DNA of 33,639 nucleotides, from NCBI GenBank assembly GCA_009843735.1, contig VYCW01000133.1:1-33639 (forward strand), given 5' to 3'. The notes beneath the pieces are model-generated. The model ran no database searches. It was not told the origin of the DNA and saw only the letters and a program-made list of their open reading frames with translations. This document shows, one piece after another, positions 1 to 8,464 of this stretch. Origin of the DNA: Acidimicrobiaceae bacterium (lineage in GTDB: Bacteria; Actinomycetota; Acidimicrobiia; Acidimicrobiales; Aldehydirespiratoraceae). The position numbers were made by a program, and so were the translations under genes. Position 1 is the first letter of the stretch, and each line of letters starts with the position of its first letter.

Positions 1-793
1 CCCAAGTGCCGTAGATGCGCGGCCCGAGGATCGGGTAGAAGATCGACCGGAACGTCAGCGGCAGTCCCCGGTTGTAGGCGAAGAAGCCCAGAGCCAGCGC
101 CGTCAGCCCGTAGAGGGCCCAACCGTGAACCCCCCAATGGAGGTAGGTGGTGGCCAGTGCAGCCTTGCCGGCCTCTACGCTGCCGGGCTCCACATCGAAC
201 AGCGGCGCCGGGGACGTGAAGTGGAAGATCGGCTCAGCGACCCCCCAGAACATCAGCCCGATGCCCAGCCCCGCCGACAGCAGCATCGCGTACCAGGAGA
301 CAGTGGAGAACTCCGGCAAGGCGAAGGGACCGCCCAACTTGATCTTCCCGTAGCGGCTGAACGCGAAGTACATCGCCACCAGCAGGAAGATGTTGAAGTC
401 GAGGATGTAGAACCAGCCGAGCGACCCGTTGATGAAGTCGAGAATCTCGCTGAACACGTCCTGGGTGGCCTCGACGAAGATCGACAGGCAGATGAAAACC
501 ACCAGGAACCCCGACGCCCAGAACGTGACCTGCGGATGGATGTCGAACCCGGCCCGCACGATGTTGCGGTCCCCGGGCTCCCGGTCGGCCACCTCCGGGT
601 AGAAGTCGATGTCGGGATCGACCTGCAGACCCTCGAATGACTTGCGGTTGCTGATCGCCTCCTCGCGGCGGCGCTCCTCCTCCTCCTCCCAATCATGCAA
701 CGCGAGGGTCGCCTCGGTCAGATCGATGTCGGTGTCGTCCGGCGATCGGTGGATGCGCGGATCCTCCGACGCCGGGTTGCCTGCGTCGTCCAT
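1..793 (-). CDS. BCCT-family betaine/choline/carnitine transporter, partial (C-terminus beyond left edge)
   Basis: The leftward reading frame from an ATG at 793 stays open to the window edge, giving 264 residues. Residues 1-80 are a hydrophilic, acidic cytoplasmic tail with a run of Glu. Membrane segments follow at about 87-107, 128-148 and 165-188. The third carries GLGIGLMFWGVAEP (175-188), the hallmark of the BCCT family (BetP, OpuD, BetT), which moves quaternary-amine osmolytes with Na+ or H+. The next visible stretch, HWGVHGWALYGLTALALGFFAYNRG, fits the following helix and loop of the family. The gene is divergent from the OpuAC-channel fusion, with 211 bp between their starts. The neighbourhood (a second betaine importer, OpuA type) supports a compatible-solute substrate, but the exact substrate cannot be read from this part. 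Confidence 0.93.
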   Translation of the reverse strand, partial: MDDAGNPASEDPRIHRSPDDTDIDLTEATLALHDWEEEEERRREEAISNRKSFEGLQVDPDIDFYPEVADREPGDRNIVRAGFDIHPQVTFWASGFLVVFICLSIFVEATQDVFSEILDFINGSLGWFYILDFNIFLLVAMYFAFSRYGKIKLGGPFALPEFSTVSWYAMLLSAGLGIGLMFWGVAEPIFHFTSPAPLFDVEPGSVEAGKAALATTYLHWGVHGWALYGLTALALGFFAYNRGLPLTFRSIFYPILGPRIYGTW

Positions 794-1004
794 GACGGTC
801 CTCCGGGTTGTCTCCCCTAGGCCTGGACGGGCTCGGCACACATGCGCCGAGCCTCCCGGTGCCAGGCGTCGCGACCGTAACACGGATTATGAGAGCGTGC
901 AGATGGATCGAGATGGAGCTATATAGTATTCAATACTTTTATCTCGGCTAAAGCGCAGCGCTCGGATGGGCTAGCCTCGCATCGCGTCTATCCGGGGGCC
1001 GCCG
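794..1004. promoter_or_regulatory. Divergent intergenic region with palindrome AGTATT-C-AATACT
   Basis: This 211-bp region separates the divergent BCCT transporter and channel-fusion genes. It contains an AT-rich island (about 918-950) that stands out in this GC-rich DNA. Within it is a perfect 6-1-6 palindrome, AGTATT-C-AATACT, at 925-937. It overlaps TATAGT (922-927), which resembles a -10 box for the rightward gene, but I see no good -35 for it. An operator controlling one or both osmolyte genes is an inference. Confidence 0.4.
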
Positions 1005-3080
1005 ATGCGACGAGCCTCAATCGCCGTCGTGCTGATCATGGTCGCCATGCTGGCCCTGCCCCTGGGCCAAGCGGCCGCGCAGGATCCGTCCGACGATGCC
1101 CCTCGGGTTCGGATGGCCCGAGCCACCTGGGACACCGGCTGGTTCCAGGCTGAGGTCTACCAGCTGCTCCTAGAGCGGCTCGGTTACCAGGTGGACGGCC
1201 CGGTCACCATGGACAACGCGGAGTTCTACGAGGCGGTAGCGGCGGGCGAGGTCGACTTGTGGGCCAACGGGTGGTTCCCGGCACACGAAGCGTTCATCGC
1301 CGACGCGGCCCCCGTATCCCGGGTCGGCACCGCGGTGGACGACGGCGCCCTCCAGGGCTACTTCGTCGACGCCGCGACGGCGGAGACGCACGGGATCTTC
1401 AACCTGGGAGACCTGGCCGACCCCGCGGTGGCTGCGCTCTTCGATCACGACGGCGACGGCCGGGCCGACCTGGTGGGCTGCAACGTCGGATGGTCCTGCG
1501 CGGCCACCATCGACCACCATCTGGAGGTCTACGGCCTCGCCGGCACGGTGGAGCAGGTTCAGGGCGACTATTCGCCCCTCATCACCGAGACCATCAACCG
1601 TTTCCGGTCCGGTCAGCCCGTCCTCTACTTCACGTGGACGCCCAACTGGACGGTGGGCGAACTGGTTCCCGGCTCCGACGTGGTGTGGCTGGAGACCCCG
1701 TTCCCGTCGTTGCCCCCGGACCAGGCCGAGGCACTGGATCGGACGGCCATCGCCGGGATAGATGGCTGCGCCAACGATCCCTGCCAGACCGGCTGGCCTC
1801 CCAACGACATCCGGGCCGTCGCCAACTCCGACTTTTTGGACGCCAACCCGTCGGTGCGCACGCTGCTGGAGCAGGTAGTGATCCCCCTCGCCGACATATC
1901 GGCGCAGAACGTCCGGATGGTGACCCTGGGCGGGGATCCCTCCGACATCCGGCGCCACGCCGAGGAGTGGGTGGCCGCCAACGCGGCCCTGGTCAACCGT
2001 TGGATCACCGCCGCAGACCCCGATGCGATCGGGCTGGACGACACTGCGGGCGACGCCGCCGAGGCTGGAGGCACGCTGTCGGTGGCGGCCCGGGCCCTGC
2101 CGCCCTTCGTGATCTACGAGAACCGCACGTACAGCGGGTTCGAGGTGGAACTAGTGCAGTTGGTCGCGGCCAAGCTGGGCATGTCGGCCGAGATCTACGC
2201 AGTCGACACGGTGGCCAAGCAAGTCGACGACATCAGCCGGGGAGTGGCCCAGGTGGGTCTGGGCGGGGTGGCCGTCACCGAGTCGCGCGAGGAGGTCGTC
2301 GACTTCTCGCTGCCTGTGCTCGACTCGGGCTTGACGATCCTGGTCCTCAACCAGTCGTCCCGGGGCCTGGCCGACCGGATCGCCGCGTTCTTCAGAGCCA
2401 TCGCCTCGTCGGATCTGCCCTGGCTCCTGGTGGTGTTCGGGGTTGCGGTGCTGGTGGCCGCCCACTTGATCTGGTGGCTGGAGCGCCATAACAACCCCGA
2501 CTTCGCGACTCCCTACCGCCGCGGCATCTGGGACTCGTTCTACTGGTCGGTGGTGACCATGAGCACCGTCGGGTACGGCGACAAGGTCGCTCGGGGGACG
2601 AAGGGCCGTGTGCTCGCTCTGCTGTGGATCGGTCTCGGCACGCTCGTGTTCGCCAGCTTCACCGCGGCCATCGCCTCCTCCCTCGCGGTCAACGAGCTGA
2701 GATCGGAGATCTCCGGGCCGTCGGACCTGTTGGGCCGCCGGGTGGCCACCGCCACCCACTCGGCCGGCGAGGCGTACCTGCCCTCCATCGGGGTGGGCCC
2801 GGTGCTCGTGGACGACATCGAGGACGCCTACCCCCTCCTGCTGGAGGGTGAGGTGGACGCGGTCGTGTTCGACGCTCCCGTGCTCCAGTTCCACGCCGCC
2901 CGGGAGGGGGCCGGCGAGGTCGCGACGGTGGGCGCCGACTTCCAGAGGGTCCAATACGGCCTGATGCTCAGCGAGGATGATCCTGAGCTTCAAGAGAGGA
3001 TCGATCTAGCCCTGCTCGACCTGGCCGAGAGCGGCATCTACCAGAGGCTCCACGACGCCTGGTTCGGCTCGCAGCCCTAG
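1005..3080 (+). CDS. Glycine-betaine-binding (OpuAC) domain fused to GluR0-like ligand-gated K+ channel
   Basis: 691 residues. Residues 1-26 are a Sec signal peptide (AAA/Q cleavage likely). Residues ~33-340 form an OpuAC-type osmolyte-binding domain, with Trp at 42, 46, 86, 90, 163, 211 and 215 as candidates for the aromatic cage that holds quaternary amines. Residues ~356-452 are the S1 lobe of a second binding domain, with TESREEVVDFS and Arg428 at the position of the iGluR carboxylate-binding Arg. TM1 is 471-493, the pore helix ~509-520, and the filter TVGYG (521-525) is K+-selective in type. TM2 is 536-559, with SFTAAIASS (551-559) matching the iGluR gating motif SYTANLAAF. S2 is ~563-688, with Asp623 where iGluRs bind the amino group. 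Weak GGGGG ribosome site, ATG start. The S1-TM-P-TM-S2 order is that of cyanobacterial GluR0; the extra OpuAC domain is the novelty. Gating by betaine is inference. Confidence 0.93.
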   Translation: MRRASIAVVLIMVAMLALPLGQAAAQDPSDDAPRVRMARATWDTGWFQAEVYQLLLERLGYQVDGPVTMDNAEFYEAVAAGEVDLWANGWFPAHEAFIADAAPVSRVGTAVDDGALQGYFVDAATAETHGIFNLGDLADPAVAALFDHDGDGRADLVGCNVGWSCAATIDHHLEVYGLAGTVEQVQGDYSPLITETINRFRSGQPVLYFTWTPNWTVGELVPGSDVVWLETPFPSLPPDQAEALDRTAIAGIDGCANDPCQTGWPPNDIRAVANSDFLDANPSVRTLLEQVVIPLADISAQNVRMVTLGGDPSDIRRHAEEWVAANAALVNRWITAADPDAIGLDDTAGDAAEAGGTLSVAARALPPFVIYENRTYSGFEVELVQLVAAKLGMSAEIYAVDTVAKQVDDISRGVAQVGLGGVAVTESREEVVDFSLPVLDSGLTILVLNQSSRGLADRIAAFFRAIASSDLPWLLVVFGVAVLVAAHLIWWLERHNNPDFATPYRRGIWDSFYWSVVTMSTVGYGDKVARGTKGRVLALLWIGLGTLVFASFTAAIASSLAVNELRSEISGPSDLLGRRVATATHSAGEAYLPSIGVGPVLVDDIEDAYPLLLEGEVDAVVFDAPVLQFHAAREGAGEVATVGADFQRVQYGLMLSEDDPELQERIDLALLDLAESGIYQRLHDAWFGSQP

Positions 3081-3102: not shown

Positions 3103-5316
3103 CTAATCGATGCCTAGCTGGGCCTTGCGTTCCCGTGCGTAGTTGGTGATGAGCTGATCGGCGGTGAGCCCGATGACGGCCACGTTGAACCCTGCGACGA
3201 TTCCCTCGCCGACCAGGGCCTGCTCGGTGCGGGCCAGCAGGATGTCGTCGCCGAGGCCGTCGATGCCGCCGATGAAGGCGGAGATGATCACCAGCAGGAG
3301 TCCGAACAGCAGCACCTGGTTCATGCCCAGCATGATCTCGGGGAAGGCCATGGGGAACTTGACCTTGCGCAGCACCTGTGAACGGGTGCAGCCCGACATC
3401 TCGGCGGCCTCGATCATGTCGGCGGGCACGTTGCGCAACCCGAGCATCGTGTAGCGCACCGCCGGGACCGTCGCGTAGATCACGATGGCGGTCAGCGCAG
3501 CCACCGGTCCTACCCGGAACAGCATCACCACCGGTATCAGGTAGATGAACGAGGGCAGCACCTGGAACGTGTCCAGCACCACCTGCACCGCGGCGTAGCG
3601 CCGGTCGCTCGTCGAGGCGAAGATCCCGATCGGGACTCCGATGACGACACTGACGATCAGGGCCGCCACGACTAGGTAGAGCGTCTCCATCGACTCGATC
3701 CAGAACCCCGAGAACGCCAGGTAGGCCACGAACAGCGAAACGATGGCCGCCAGCCTCCATCCGCCGAAGCGCCAGCCGACCGCGGCGACGAGGACCAGCA
3801 GCCCGATCCAGGGCAGCGCCTGGAAGGCGTCGCGCATCGGGAACAGGATCTCGAGGATCATGAAGTCCCGGATGTGGCCCAGCGGGGACTTCAGGTTTAG
3901 CTGCACCCAGTCGACCATCCACTCCCAGAACGGCTCGGTGCTGACCGTCGCCCCCTTGCGGCCGTCGATCAGGACGATGTCGGTGCCGGGCAGGCGCAGC
4001 TCCCAGAGCCGGTCGGTGCTGACTATCCCGCCCCTGGGCAGCAGCGCGGCGTACTCGGTGAGCCGGGCCAGCACGATCCCGGCTGCGACCACCGCTGAGC
4101 CCCCGATCCAGTACGGGTGCCGCGCCGTCCAGCTCTTGGTCATGTCGATGTGCTCGGGCCTGCGGGCACCCAGGGCCTGGCCCAGCCGGTCGAGCATGAT
4201 GGCCATCAACACGATGGCGACCCCCACCTCCAGGGCTTTGCCGATCCTGAGGCTCTGCAGGTAGTTCAACAGCGGCAGGCCCAAGCCTCGGGTGCCGACG
4301 AAGGACGCCAGAACGGTCATGCCGAAGCACTGCATCAGCACCTGGTTGATGCCGACCAGCAACTGCGGGCGCGCCGCCGGCATCTCGACGCGCCACAGCA
4401 TCTGCCATTTGGTGCAGCCGGACATCAGGCCGGCCTCTCGCACCTCCGGCGAGACCGAGCGCAGGCCCAGGATGGTGAGCCGGGCCATGGGCGGCACCGC
4501 GAACAGGACGGTGGCGATGGCGCCGGCCTCGTCGCCGATGCCGATGAACACCGAGATCGGCAGCAGGTAGGAGAAGTGCGGCATCGACTGCATCACGTTG
4601 AGCACTGGCACCAGCAGGGCCTCGAACCACCTTGCCTTCACCGCGGCGAGACCTGAGGCCCAGCCGATCAGCGCGGCCAGCGGCGCCACCACGAACACGA
4701 TCGACAGCGTGATCATGGAGTCCTTCCACACGCCGAAGACAGCCAGGTACAGCGAGCACCCGCCGGCCAGCAGCGCCAGCCGCCAGCCGCCCAGCTTGGC
4801 CCCGGCCACCGCGAAGAGGCCCACGAGCACGACCCAGGGCACCGCGCCCCAGCCGAAGGTGTTGAACATGGCCAGATACAGCGAGCAGGCTCCGGCCAGC
4901 GCCGCCAGCCGCAAGCCGCCGAGCATGGCGCCGATCCCGGCGAGGAGGCCGATGATCACGATCCAGGGCACCGGACCCCAACCGAAGGAATCCCCGCCCG
5001 AGATCAGCAGCTGCTCGCTCAGGTCCAGGGGGTACTCCAGCCAGCCAGACACCGTCCGGGTGACGTCCTTGAAGTTGAACAGCCCGAGCAGCTCCTCGTC
5101 CTTGAGGTACAGCAGGGCCTCGTTGGCCCAGTCGGGCAGGAACCTGAAGTCGCCCAGCTTTGACAGCCAGTCGGGGAACAGGCCCGGAGCGGCCTGATGG
5201 ATGATCTGAATGACGATGTAGGGCGACAGCAGCAACAGCGCCATGCGCCAGCCCCGCGTGCGGTGGAACCGCTCCAGGAGGCTCTCAGGTGCCGCGGACT
5301 CGACGGTCGCAGCCAT
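3103..5316 (-). CDS. OpuA/ProW-type glycine betaine ABC permease with two transport domains in one chain
   Basis: 737 residues from the ATG at 5316, which shares one base with the TGA of the upstream ATPase gene (TGATG), so translation is probably coupled. A longer in-frame start at 5361 would lie inside the ATPase gene and is less likely. Two inner-membrane permease domains are visible. Each has an EAA coupling loop that contacts the ATPase: REAGLMSGCTKWQMLWRVEMP in the first half and EAAEMSGCTRSQVLRKVKFP in the second. Two such domains in one chain differ from the usual homodimeric ProW/OpuAB. Residues 111-153 and 154-196 are a tandem duplication of a 43-residue hydrophobic hairpin, both beginning FGWG and ending CSLYLA plus four residues. 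Substrate is inferred from the adjacent OpuAC lipoprotein. Confidence 0.93.
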   Translation of the reverse strand: MAATVESAAPESLLERFHRTRGWRMALLLLSPYIVIQIIHQAAPGLFPDWLSKLGDFRFLPDWANEALLYLKDEELLGLFNFKDVTRTVSGWLEYPLDLSEQLLISGGDSFGWGPVPWIVIIGLLAGIGAMLGGLRLAALAGACSLYLAMFNTFGWGAVPWVVLVGLFAVAGAKLGGWRLALLAGGCSLYLAVFGVWKDSMITLSIVFVVAPLAALIGWASGLAAVKARWFEALLVPVLNVMQSMPHFSYLLPISVFIGIGDEAGAIATVLFAVPPMARLTILGLRSVSPEVREAGLMSGCTKWQMLWRVEMPAARPQLLVGINQVLMQCFGMTVLASFVGTRGLGLPLLNYLQSLRIGKALEVGVAIVLMAIMLDRLGQALGARRPEHIDMTKSWTARHPYWIGGSAVVAAGIVLARLTEYAALLPRGGIVSTDRLWELRLPGTDIVLIDGRKGATVSTEPFWEWMVDWVQLNLKSPLGHIRDFMILEILFPMRDAFQALPWIGLLVLVAAVGWRFGGWRLAAIVSLFVAYLAFSGFWIESMETLYLVVAALIVSVVIGVPIGIFASTSDRRYAAVQVVLDTFQVLPSFIYLIPVVMLFRVGPVAALTAIVIYATVPAVRYTMLGLRNVPADMIEAAEMSGCTRSQVLRKVKFPMAFPEIMLGMNQVLLFGLLLVIISAFIGGIDGLGDDILLARTEQALVGEGIVAGFNVAVIGLTADQLITNYARERKAQLGID
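4729..4986 (-). repeat. Tandem 129-bp repeat inside the permease gene (two 43-residue membrane hairpins)
   Basis: Two adjacent 129-bp units (4858-4986 and 4729-4857) encode similar 43-residue segments with the shared pattern FGWGxVPW, GxxLGGxRLAxLAGxCSLYLA. The units are diverged, so this is an old duplication rather than an assembly error. A third, more distant version of the same hairpin precedes the second permease domain (PWIGLLVLVAAVGWRFGGWRL). Confidence 0.7.
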
Positions 5317-6365
5317 CAGTCCTCGCCGGAGTCTGTGCCCTCGGGCTCGCTCGTGCCCCACACGGCGTCGATCACGGCGTCGCGGGTGAGGCTCCCCACC
5401 GCCACGCCGTCGTCGACCACGAGCATCGGGCTCGAGCTGGCCAGCACCGTCGGGGCGATCTCGCGCAGTAACGCGCCGGCGTCCACCGTCCCCGCGCCGG
5501 CATCGGCGTCGGCCACGTCGCCCATCACGCTGCCGGCGGTGAGGATGCGGTCGCGCTGCACGTCGCGGGCGAAGGCCCGGACGTAGTCGGTGGCCGGGTG
5601 CGTGACCAGTTCCTCGGCCCGGCCGATCTGCACGATCTGGCCCTCATAGAGGATGGCGATACGGTCGGCCAGACGGATCGCCTCGCTGAAGTCGTGGGTG
5701 ATGAACACAATGGTCTTGTGCAGCACCGACTGGAGCCGTAGGAACTCGTCCTGCATCTCCCGCCGGATCAGCGGGTCGAGCGCGGAGAAGGGCTCGTCCA
5801 GGAACCACACGTCGGGCTCCACCGCCAGCGACCGGCCGATGCCGACGCGCTGCTGCTGGCCGCCGGAGAGCTCCCTGGGGTAGTAGCCGCCGCGCCCCTC
5901 TAATCCCACCAGCGAGAGGATCTCGGCGGCCCTCCTCTGGCGGGTGGCGCTGTCGACCCCCTGCACCTCCAGTGGGAACACGATGTTCTCGGCCACGGTG
6001 CGATGGGGGAACAGCGCAAAGTGCTGGAACACCATGCCCATGCGGTGGCGCCGGATGTCGATCAGTTCCTTGCCCGACGCGGCCAGCAGATCGACTCCGC
6101 TGAAGTGGACGCTGCCCGCGGTCGGCTCGATCAGGCGTGACAGGCAGCGAACCAGCGTCGACTTGCCCGAGCCGCTCAGCCCCATCAGCACGAGGATCTC
6201 GCCCGGCATGACATCGAGACTTGCCGCCACCACGGCCGGTATGTACCCGGCGTCCTTCACCAGGTCGACGCTGGGATCGCCGTCGTGCTGGCGGAGGAAC
6301 TTCTCGGGATCCGGTCCGTACAGCTTCCAGACGTCCCGGCACGAAATCATCGCGTCCGTGGTCAC
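5316..6365 (-). CDS. Glycine betaine/proline ABC transporter ATPase (ProV/OpuAA type)
   Basis: 349 residues from a GTG at 6365; an in-frame ATG five codons later (6350) is an alternative. It powers osmolyte import through the downstream permease. Walker A is GLSGSGKST with Lys68, the signature is LSGGQQQRVGIGRSL, Walker B is WFLDEPFSALDP with Asp190-Glu191, and the H-loop is VFITHDF. The N-terminal WKLYGPDPEKF extension is typical of ProV/OpuAA. After about residue 265 the tail (RILTAGSVM ... PMLVVDDGVAVGSLTRDAVIDAVW) resembles a single compact CBS-like unit; OpuAA proteins generally carry a CBS pair implicated in ionic-strength sensing. The stop overlaps the start of the permease gene by one base. 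It is separated from the upstream binding-protein gene by 104 bp holding a strong hairpin. Confidence 0.95.
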   Translation of the reverse strand: MTTDAMISCRDVWKLYGPDPEKFLRQHDGDPSVDLVKDAGYIPAVVAASLDVMPGEILVLMGLSGSGKSTLVRCLSRLIEPTAGSVHFSGVDLLAASGKELIDIRRHRMGMVFQHFALFPHRTVAENIVFPLEVQGVDSATRQRRAAEILSLVGLEGRGGYYPRELSGGQQQRVGIGRSLAVEPDVWFLDEPFSALDPLIRREMQDEFLRLQSVLHKTIVFITHDFSEAIRLADRIAILYEGQIVQIGRAEELVTHPATDYVRAFARDVQRDRILTAGSVMGDVADADAGAGTVDAGALLREIAPTVLASSSPMLVVDDGVAVGSLTRDAVIDAVWGTSEPEGTDSGED

Positions 6366-6392
6366 GTCGCTGCCATCCGCGCCTCCAGAGAA

Positions 6393-6427
6393 CCGGCCGG
6401 GGGAAGCGTCCGCTTCCGCCCGGCCGG
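6393..6427 (-). promoter_or_regulatory. Strong intercistronic hairpin between binding-protein and ATPase genes
   Basis: On the + strand, CCGGCCGGGGGAAGCG (6393-6408) faces CGCTTCCGCCCGGCCGG (6411-6427), a nearly perfect inverted repeat with one bulged base. It lies 43-77 nt downstream of the binding-protein stop and upstream of the ATPase start. There is no T-tract. Such hairpins in ABC operons often protect the 3' end of the binding-protein message so that it is made in excess; that role here is inference. Confidence 0.6.
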
Positions 6428-6450
6428 CACTCTAGCTACTGAGTCGTAGG

Positions 6451-6458
6451 TAGTACTA
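6451..6458. promoter_or_regulatory. Palindrome TAGTACTA in opu intercistronic gap
   Basis: A perfect 8-bp palindrome in a locally AT-richer stretch, just downstream of the binding-protein stop at 6470. It shares the TAGTA/TACTA core with palindromes upstream of the binding-protein gene (8542-8583) and of the channel gene (925-937). It could be an operator or chance. Confidence 0.25.
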
Positions 6459-6469
6459 TGTCATCCCTT

Positions 6470-8464
<1,995 letters not shown>

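Follow-up and report, generated by a model that had tools for sequence, protein, structure and literature searches.

This locus raises the question of whether a single bacterial protein can join a betaine-binding clamshell to a potassium channel, and what such a protein would do for the cell that carries it. The gene lies at positions 1005-3080 of the window, by which we mean the whole stretch of DNA that was analysed, 33,639 nucleotides of contig VYCW01000133.1 from an Acidimicrobiaceae bacterium. The original prediction, made from sequence alone, was that one protein here carries a signal peptide, an OpuAC osmolyte-binding domain and a full S1-TM1-pore-TM2-S2 module of the ionotropic glutamate-receptor kind. 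The gene, its parts and the region upstream of it are laid out as follows.

2..883, minus strand: front part of a divergent BCCT gene for a betaine/choline-type transporter (PF02028, E 4e-57, matching 174 of 485 positions), truncated where the contig ends
794..1004, no strand: stretch separating the BCCT gene from the channel gene, which are divergent (start context)
1005..3080, plus strand: ProX-GluR0 fusion channel gene, ATG start, 691 residues in a single frame without internal stop
1005..1079, plus strand: signal peptide, residues about 1-25, a hydrophobic core ending AAA-Q read off the sequence, with a model helix at 2-16
1104..2018, plus strand: ProX/OpuAC betaine-binding clamshell, residues 34-338 (Pfam, NCBIfam and PDB matches, alignment, Foldseek)
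2019..2069, plus strand: linker joining the two clamshells, residues 339-355 (modelled at low confidence)
2070..2354, plus strand: S1 half of the amino-acid-binding clamshell, residues 356-450, holding R428 (Pfam, PDB match, alignment)
2415..2492, plus strand: TM1, residues 471-496 (model helix)
2514..2579, plus strand: pore helix and TVGYG filter, residues 504-525 (sequence, Pfam, alignment, model)
2598..2705, plus strand: TM2, residues 532-567, including the SFTAAIASS segment at 551-559 (sequence, alignment, model)
2706..3068, plus strand: S2 half of the amino-acid-binding clamshell, residues 568-688, holding D623 (Pfam, PDB match, alignment)

Four Pfam matches, all above the curated cut-offs, define the domains of the channel protein: OpuAC at residues 34-324 (E 9.8e-47, 160 bits against a cut-off of 21.2), SBP_bac_3 spread over 363-688 (E 1.3e-23), a pattern that is expected because the channel interrupts the clamshell, Ion_trans_2 at 481-560 (E 3.8e-14) and Lig_chan at 473-577 (E 2.8e-12). 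The N-terminal part is recognised by NCBIfam as a ProX equivalog, at 343 bits against a cut-off of 215, and in PDB sequence comparisons residues 40-337 match E. coli ProX (1r9l, E 3.3e-61), while the remainder matches the ligand-binding domain of a bacterial glutamate-receptor homologue (2pyy, E 4e-36), which we take to be a GluR0-type domain from Nostoc, as well as animal NMDA receptors. The S1 and S2 halves flank TM1, the pore loop and TM2 by Pfam, PDB and structural model, and R428 and D623 are aligned with the arginine and aspartate of the 2pyy amino-acid site. The protein is, as an architecture, a GluR0-type S1-TM1-pore-TM2-S2 channel with a K+ filter and an added ProX N-terminal domain; that it conducts is inferred. 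The predicted combination of domains thus held, with the signal peptide resting on sequence and model, as did the placement of two extracytoplasmic clamshells on one pore and the positions given for TVGYG (521-525), SFTAAIASS (551-559), R428 and D623. An absence of OpuAC or channel homology in profile searches, which would have refuted the prediction, was not found.

The fusion is present in 13 of 51 genomes from the family to which the window belongs, at full length in 12, the window counted; the other 11 full-length orthologs are 76-96% identical to the window protein, and one ortholog (G157) is split across two contigs. Nei-Gojobori estimates of dN/dS for seven ortholog pairs run from 0 to 0.21 in each of the ProX, S1, TM and S2 parts, and therefore both halves of the protein are under purifying selection.

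The fusion is not peculiar to this genome, as a census of the architecture showed. A scan of genome_contigs returned 76 loci: in 60 the two domains share a single frame, and 55 of those are full length. The scan kept the best 80 of 115 confirmed stretches and relied on only two peptide patterns, WDTGWFQ and IWDSF[YW]W, so that relatives without those patterns are missed and the conservation of residues 42-48 is partly due to selection. By the genome_contigs labels the fusions span Actinomycetota, Cyanobacteriota, Chloroflexota, Thermodesulfobacteriota, Bacteroidota and Kiritimatiellae, the last of these being cut by a contig end; many records are metagenome-assembled genomes (MAGs), and single taxon labels may be wrong. 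Within Actinomycetota the bearers are Acidimicrobiia, Nitriliruptorales, Salsipaludibacter albus and Haloactinopolyspora alba, together with Phytoactinopolyspora endophytica, where the gene is in two frames. Among Cyanobacteria they are Symploca, Leptolyngbya and Halomicronema, and further fusions occur in Chloroflexi, in Bacteroidetes and in Deltaproteobacteria, the latter comprising Desulfosarcinaceae and others such as the Olavius algarvensis symbiont Delta 3. Four fusion genes, at L148, L152, L153 and L155, are in pieces or in two frames, reflecting sequencing error or decay.

Larger genome samples were searched with a channel-module probe, and because scoring was confined to the 5 to 8 top first-look candidates of each genome, the counts are lower bounds. 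At least 27 of 296 genomes in the class sample matched, 19 of which carry the fusion (called from an open frame of at least 690 and checked by profile), and in one more, G373, the channel half is cut by a contig end. The phylum sample gave at least 17 matching genomes of 396, with 5 fusions. GluR0-type matches were found in at least 44 of 244 sampled genomes of the cyanobacterial phylum (2 with a frame over 700), in at least 11 of 247 from the phylum of the Delta 3 symbiont (1 with a frame over 700) and in 3 of 22 from the order of Haloactinopolyspora, with frames of 630 to 735. In the genomes sampled, the distribution of the fusion within phyla is sporadic. Several of 12 fusion-bearing genomes examined also hold unfused GluR0-type channels.

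Site conservation was taken from an alignment of 57 fused proteins, consisting of the window protein, 55 from genome_contigs and one from a further locus. Left out of this alignment and of the trees were L113 and L143, which are cut, the broken or partial genes of L148, L152 and L153, L155 with its gene in two frames, and L144/L150, where a single MAG has the halves on separate contigs. W90, W163, C159 and C165 are each invariant (57/57), every protein has an aromatic residue at 211 (48 W, 8 F, 1 Y), and H94 is present in 49 proteins and differs in 8. In the channel part, R428 is found in 57/57 and D623 in 56/57, and the six positions of TVGYGD are conserved in 56, 56, 57, 56, 57 and 56 of the 57. 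W90, W163 and W211 align with tryptophans of E. coli ProX 1r9l, which we take to be its cage residues, and the C159/C165 pair likewise matches that protein. The Trp-prism principle by which betaine-type ligands are bound has been described (PMC2861598), and by analogy with ProX/OpuAC structures W90, W163 and W211, accompanied by H94 and the cysteine pair, would form a betaine cage, a proposal for which there are no binding data. Free ProX proteins near the fusion, 39 in number once the fronts of the cut or broken fusions L144 and L155 are left out, all retain W90, H94, W163 and both cysteines, and in all of them position 211 is aromatic (34 W, 5 Y). Among the 18 most distant fused rows, identity to the window is 40-62% in the ProX half, 35-53% in S1 and 35-47% in S2; in 17 of these rows ProX is the part most like the window, ahead of both S1 and S2, and in the remaining one (L147) it ties with S2.

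An AlphaFold2 model built on the 57-row alignment (mean pLDDT 79.3, pTM 0.47) forms both clamshells, TM1, the pore helix and TM2, with no helix after S2. Its top Foldseek match is 1r9l, ProX with glycine betaine (TM 0.88 on target), and the next are AMPA receptor LBD-TMD structures. Residues 213-217, the linker at 343-354 and the filter at 522-525 score below 50 pLDDT, and the relative placement of the two clamshells is predicted without confidence, given the pTM of 0.47 and the linker scores below 50.

The descent of the two halves was followed in separate trees. Besides 28 unfused rows, the channel tree contained 31 fused ones (27 of the 60 genome_contigs fusions, L072, L180, L193 and the window); for the ProX tree the fused set comprised 27 genome_contigs fusions, L072, L193 and the window. 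By descent the channel part groups with unfused GluR0-type channels of the same module, in a tree that does not include Synechocystis GluR0 itself, and all 31 fused channels fall in one clade with support of 99/100. Three unfused cyanobacterial channels (L181, L182 and L184) nest inside this clade on branches of moderate support; two changes suffice to explain the tree, and 8% of bootstrap trees need one. The nesting suggests that these three may have lost their ProX domain, and since they lack it, the pore can do without it. In the ProX tree the fused domains do not form one clade alone (3 changes), and eleven unfused ProX rows, of Chloroflexi and Alphaproteobacteria, are placed among the fused rows by weakly supported branches. 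A separate clade (100/99) is formed by the free ProX of the BCCT-ProX-channel gene set. The simplest reading of the channel tree is a single fusion followed by interphylum transfer and one later loss of ProX, which the ProX tree neither proves nor excludes.

The neighbourhood of the fusion is marked by BCCT genes. In the window the likely start of the BCCT gene is an ATG at 793 behind GGAGG, and the same genome's sole other BCCT match is a BCCT tail that lies, with a ProX gene after it, at one end of contig C47. These probably continue the window BCCT, so that one gene order is split over two contigs; this is inferred from the order in relatives, and the gap has not been closed. With flanks of 0.1 to 7.6 kb compared, a BCCT gene is present in the retrieved flank of 43/60 fused loci, within 1.3 kb in 42 of them, and a further OpuAC-type protein in 38/60, one of which (L153) is only a fragment from the front of a broken channel gene; in the flanks of 17 unfused loci neither was found. 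When only GluR0-type loci with 3 kb or more of flank in each direction are counted, BCCT is present at 37/45 fused and 0/12 unfused loci. Nine of the 17 fused loci without BCCT in the flank have a contig end within 1.5 kb of the gene. Eight others (L130, L137, L140, L145, L147, L148, L152 and L153) have more than 5 kb on each side, and therefore the link to BCCT is not universal; these are cyanobacterial, Desulfosarcinaceae, Bacteroidota and Phytoactinopolyspora loci and one from Acidimicrobiia with a broken gene. Among nine genomes that bear the fusion with no BCCT beside it, eight carry a BCCT at another place and the ninth lacks one.

Gene order within this linkage varies. BCCT is divergent from the channel in most Acidimicrobiia loci, the order is convergent with ProX adjoining the channel in L122, L123, L127 and L128, and BCCT, SBP and channel follow each other on one strand in L096, L098 and L111, as they do in L146 and L154, where the SBP is a more distant OpuAC protein. 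BCCT precedes the channel in L133 and L143 and follows it in L136, L142, L151 and L165. Because the linkage persists through several gene orders, a functional tie between BCCT and channel can be argued. At the ortholog locus L084 the BCCT is complete (PF02028, E 2e-187) and passes the general TIGR00842 cut-off. Its best equivalog is the betaine model, at 546 of the 650 bits required, ahead of choline BetT (464 versus 695) and carnitine (274 versus 541); as the betaine cut-off is not reached, the BCCT substrate is not settled. Free ProX genes directly beside the BCCT gene (L084, L088, L056, L072 and others) may point to SBP-assisted secondary transport.

Two other features of the window were considered and dropped. 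The convergent OpuA-type ABC operon at 3103-8437 was a candidate for a conserved partner, and a relative of its permease was found in 0/70 other fused-locus stretches at E <= 1e-10 (60 of them from genome_contigs, the others L084-L093, whose genomes are in part the same ones). A palindrome at 925-937 was a candidate operator and is not conserved in the more distant orthologs looked at. The operon has oddities of its own. Its OpuAC protein (6470-8437, minus strand) has two nearly identical tandem OpuAC domains, whose 300-nt copies are 98-100% alike at a spacing of 906, indicating a very recent duplication or an assembly artefact, and its permease (3103-5361, minus strand) has two BPD_transp_1 stretches in one chain of 752 residues. 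Elsewhere, a Chloroflexaceae MAG (L161, 330-2465, plus strand) encodes a lipoprotein-like chain of 712 residues with ProX followed by an amino-acid-binding SBP and no channel match, another pairing of a ProX and an amino-acid clamshell. In Halomicronema sp. CCY15110 and a near relative, a conserved gene of 754 residues lies opposite the fusion end (L204, 8145-10409; L212, 10290-12554).

Each kind of domain in the fusion was already known, and what is new, as far as the open full-text literature searched goes, is the ProX N-terminal domain on a GluR0-type channel. The protein resembles GluR0 of Synechocystis and 2pyy in its S1-TM1-P-TM2-S2 order, K+-type filter and the arginine and aspartate of the amino-acid site, but GluR0, the product of slr1257, has no N-terminal domain (PMC6385376), whereas the fusion has a ProX clamshell of 305 residues before S1. 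K+-selective prokaryotic glutamate receptors such as GluR0 and 2pyy make up Group 1 of Ger et al. 2010 (PMC2950845). With E. coli ProX (of ProVWX; 1r9l) and the OpuAC proteins of ABC importers the fusion shares the whole domain, the Trp cage positions and the cysteine pair; those proteins, however, serve an ABC permease, while the fused ProX is joined to a channel and its recurring neighbour is a BCCT. Service of the fused domain to an ABC importer is not supported at the locus, though a distant importer is not excluded. Animal and plant ionotropic glutamate receptors carry an N-terminal domain of LIVBP type and an M4 helix. The fusion likewise has two clamshells in series and the LBD-TMD fold, but it differs from them in the family of its N-terminal clamshell, in its K+ filter and in the lack of M4. 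BCCT carriers include BetP, BetT and OpuD; a full BCCT neighbours the channel at L084, without reaching the betaine equivalog cut-off, and the front part of one in the window.

The prediction that this architecture is undescribed also held, as far as the open full-text literature searched, which leaves out most subscription papers and bioRxiv preprints, contains no ProX/OpuAC-channel fusion. In Ger et al. 2010 (PMC2950845), 22 prokaryotic receptors with the S1-TM1-P-TM2-S2 topology are listed; betaine, OpuAC and ProX are absent from the main text of that paper and OpuAC from the domain list of its Figure 6. In a survey of solute-binding proteins (PMC9602780) the word 'channel' does not appear in the main text.

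One outstanding question is what the second clamshell does. We lean, by a modest margin, towards a two-clamshell, K+-selective, ligand-controlled channel that senses an external betaine-like solute and works with a betaine importer. Such a protein would be a tetrameric K+ channel of the GluR0 kind, the tetramer being inferred, with its gate under two stacked extracytoplasmic clamshells. The membrane-proximal S1S2 clamshell would take an amino acid, as in GluR0, and the outer ProX clamshell would take glycine betaine or a close quaternary-ammonium relative, ligand identity again being an inference. The ProX clamshell would occupy the place of the animal-receptor N-terminal domain, and its closure would alter channel opening; the sign of that gating is inferred. 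Dual control by betaine-like and amino-acid-like ligands, as originally predicted, is thus supported, with ligand binding and gating remaining inferred, and the BCCT linkage, which that prediction did not include, adds support for a ligand of the betaine type.

Several observations on GluR0 and on salt stress bear on the physiology, which is inferred throughout. GluR0 conducts K+, has both ends outside, is functional in E. coli only with its clamshells and changes cell volume following KCl upshock, and salt-stressed bacteria first take in K+ with glutamate, which compatible solutes later replace as K+-glutamate leaves (PMC13099474). Betaine import by Na+-coupled BCCT carriers carries positive charge inward. 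Under the favoured reading the channel and a BCCT importer, with a separate ProX in many genomes, would couple external betaine to K+ flux: K+ accumulated early in salt stress would exit while betaine enters, and its exit would offset the inward positive charge of betaine import. The direction of flux is inferred, and since PMC13099474 reads GluR0 as a path for passive K+ influx at high KCl, it may vary with conditions.

The alternative that survives best is that the ProX domain does gate the channel and that its natural ligand is choline, carnitine, DMSP, TMAO, proline betaine or an osmolyte of a marine host. This remains open as a possibility, given the unsettled substrate of the BCCT neighbour (546/650, 464/695 and 274/541 bits for betaine, choline and carnitine) and the variation in and around the putative cage, position 211 being F or Y in 9/57 proteins and H94 differing in 8/57. 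Against it, the ProX equivalog cut-off is passed widely, the choline-binding model of NCBIfam reaches only 28.7 of the required 379 bits on the channel protein, E. coli ProX has the same cage and cysteine pair, and betaine is the best BCCT equivalog. A second alternative holds that the ProX domain is non-gating and acts in assembly, stability or surface placement, the channel answering only to an amino acid. It finds support in a chimera of a viral K+ channel and a glutamate receptor that works without an N-terminal domain (PMC6385376) and in the three unfused channels nested in the fused clade. However, a scaffold needs no intact cage, and yet the cage is near-invariant in 57 proteins, nor would one look for the ProX half to be the part closer to the window in 17 of the 18 most distant rows, and we consider this reading unlikely. 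Less likely still is that ProX is a tethered donor that passes betaine to the BCCT or another importer, with the channel providing charge balance. BCCT and often a second ProX gene do adjoin the fusion, but a free ProX is often already there for such a task, eight fused loci lack BCCT despite more than 5 kb on both sides, and BCCT carriers are known to work without a binding protein. The weakest alternative, a misassembly or frameshift chimera of two adjacent genes, which would also have refuted the original prediction, is made conceivable by the free ProX gene that does lie close by in many genomes, and is all but excluded because independent orthologs are found as 55 full-length one-frame fusions in separate records, among them those of strains Salsipaludibacter albus AS10, Haloactinopolyspora alba DSM 45211 and Halomicronema sp. 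CCY15110, and because dN/dS is 0 to 0.21.

A bolder form of the favoured gating mechanism can be entertained as a possibility, no more. The channel might be a coincidence detector that opens at all, or opens fully, only when external betaine and leaked glutamate are present together, the moment at which K+-glutamate is swapped for betaine. With the BCCT and the free ProX it might then form a three-part osmolyte-exchange machine, its second clamshell having been added independently of the animal N-terminal domain.

The BCCT-ProX-channel gene set of Actinomycetota, which recurs in Deltaproteobacteria with a more distant OpuAC protein, is a candidate functional unit. Modulation by a second clamshell is, to our knowledge, not known outside the eukaryotic receptors, which use another clamshell family, and with the fusion one can study how glutamate-receptor pores came under the influence of an additional clamshell. 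Should the pore prove to be controlled by the ProX clamshell, the protein would be a compatible-solute-gated K+ channel, in which the K+ and betaine arms of osmoregulation would meet in one molecule.
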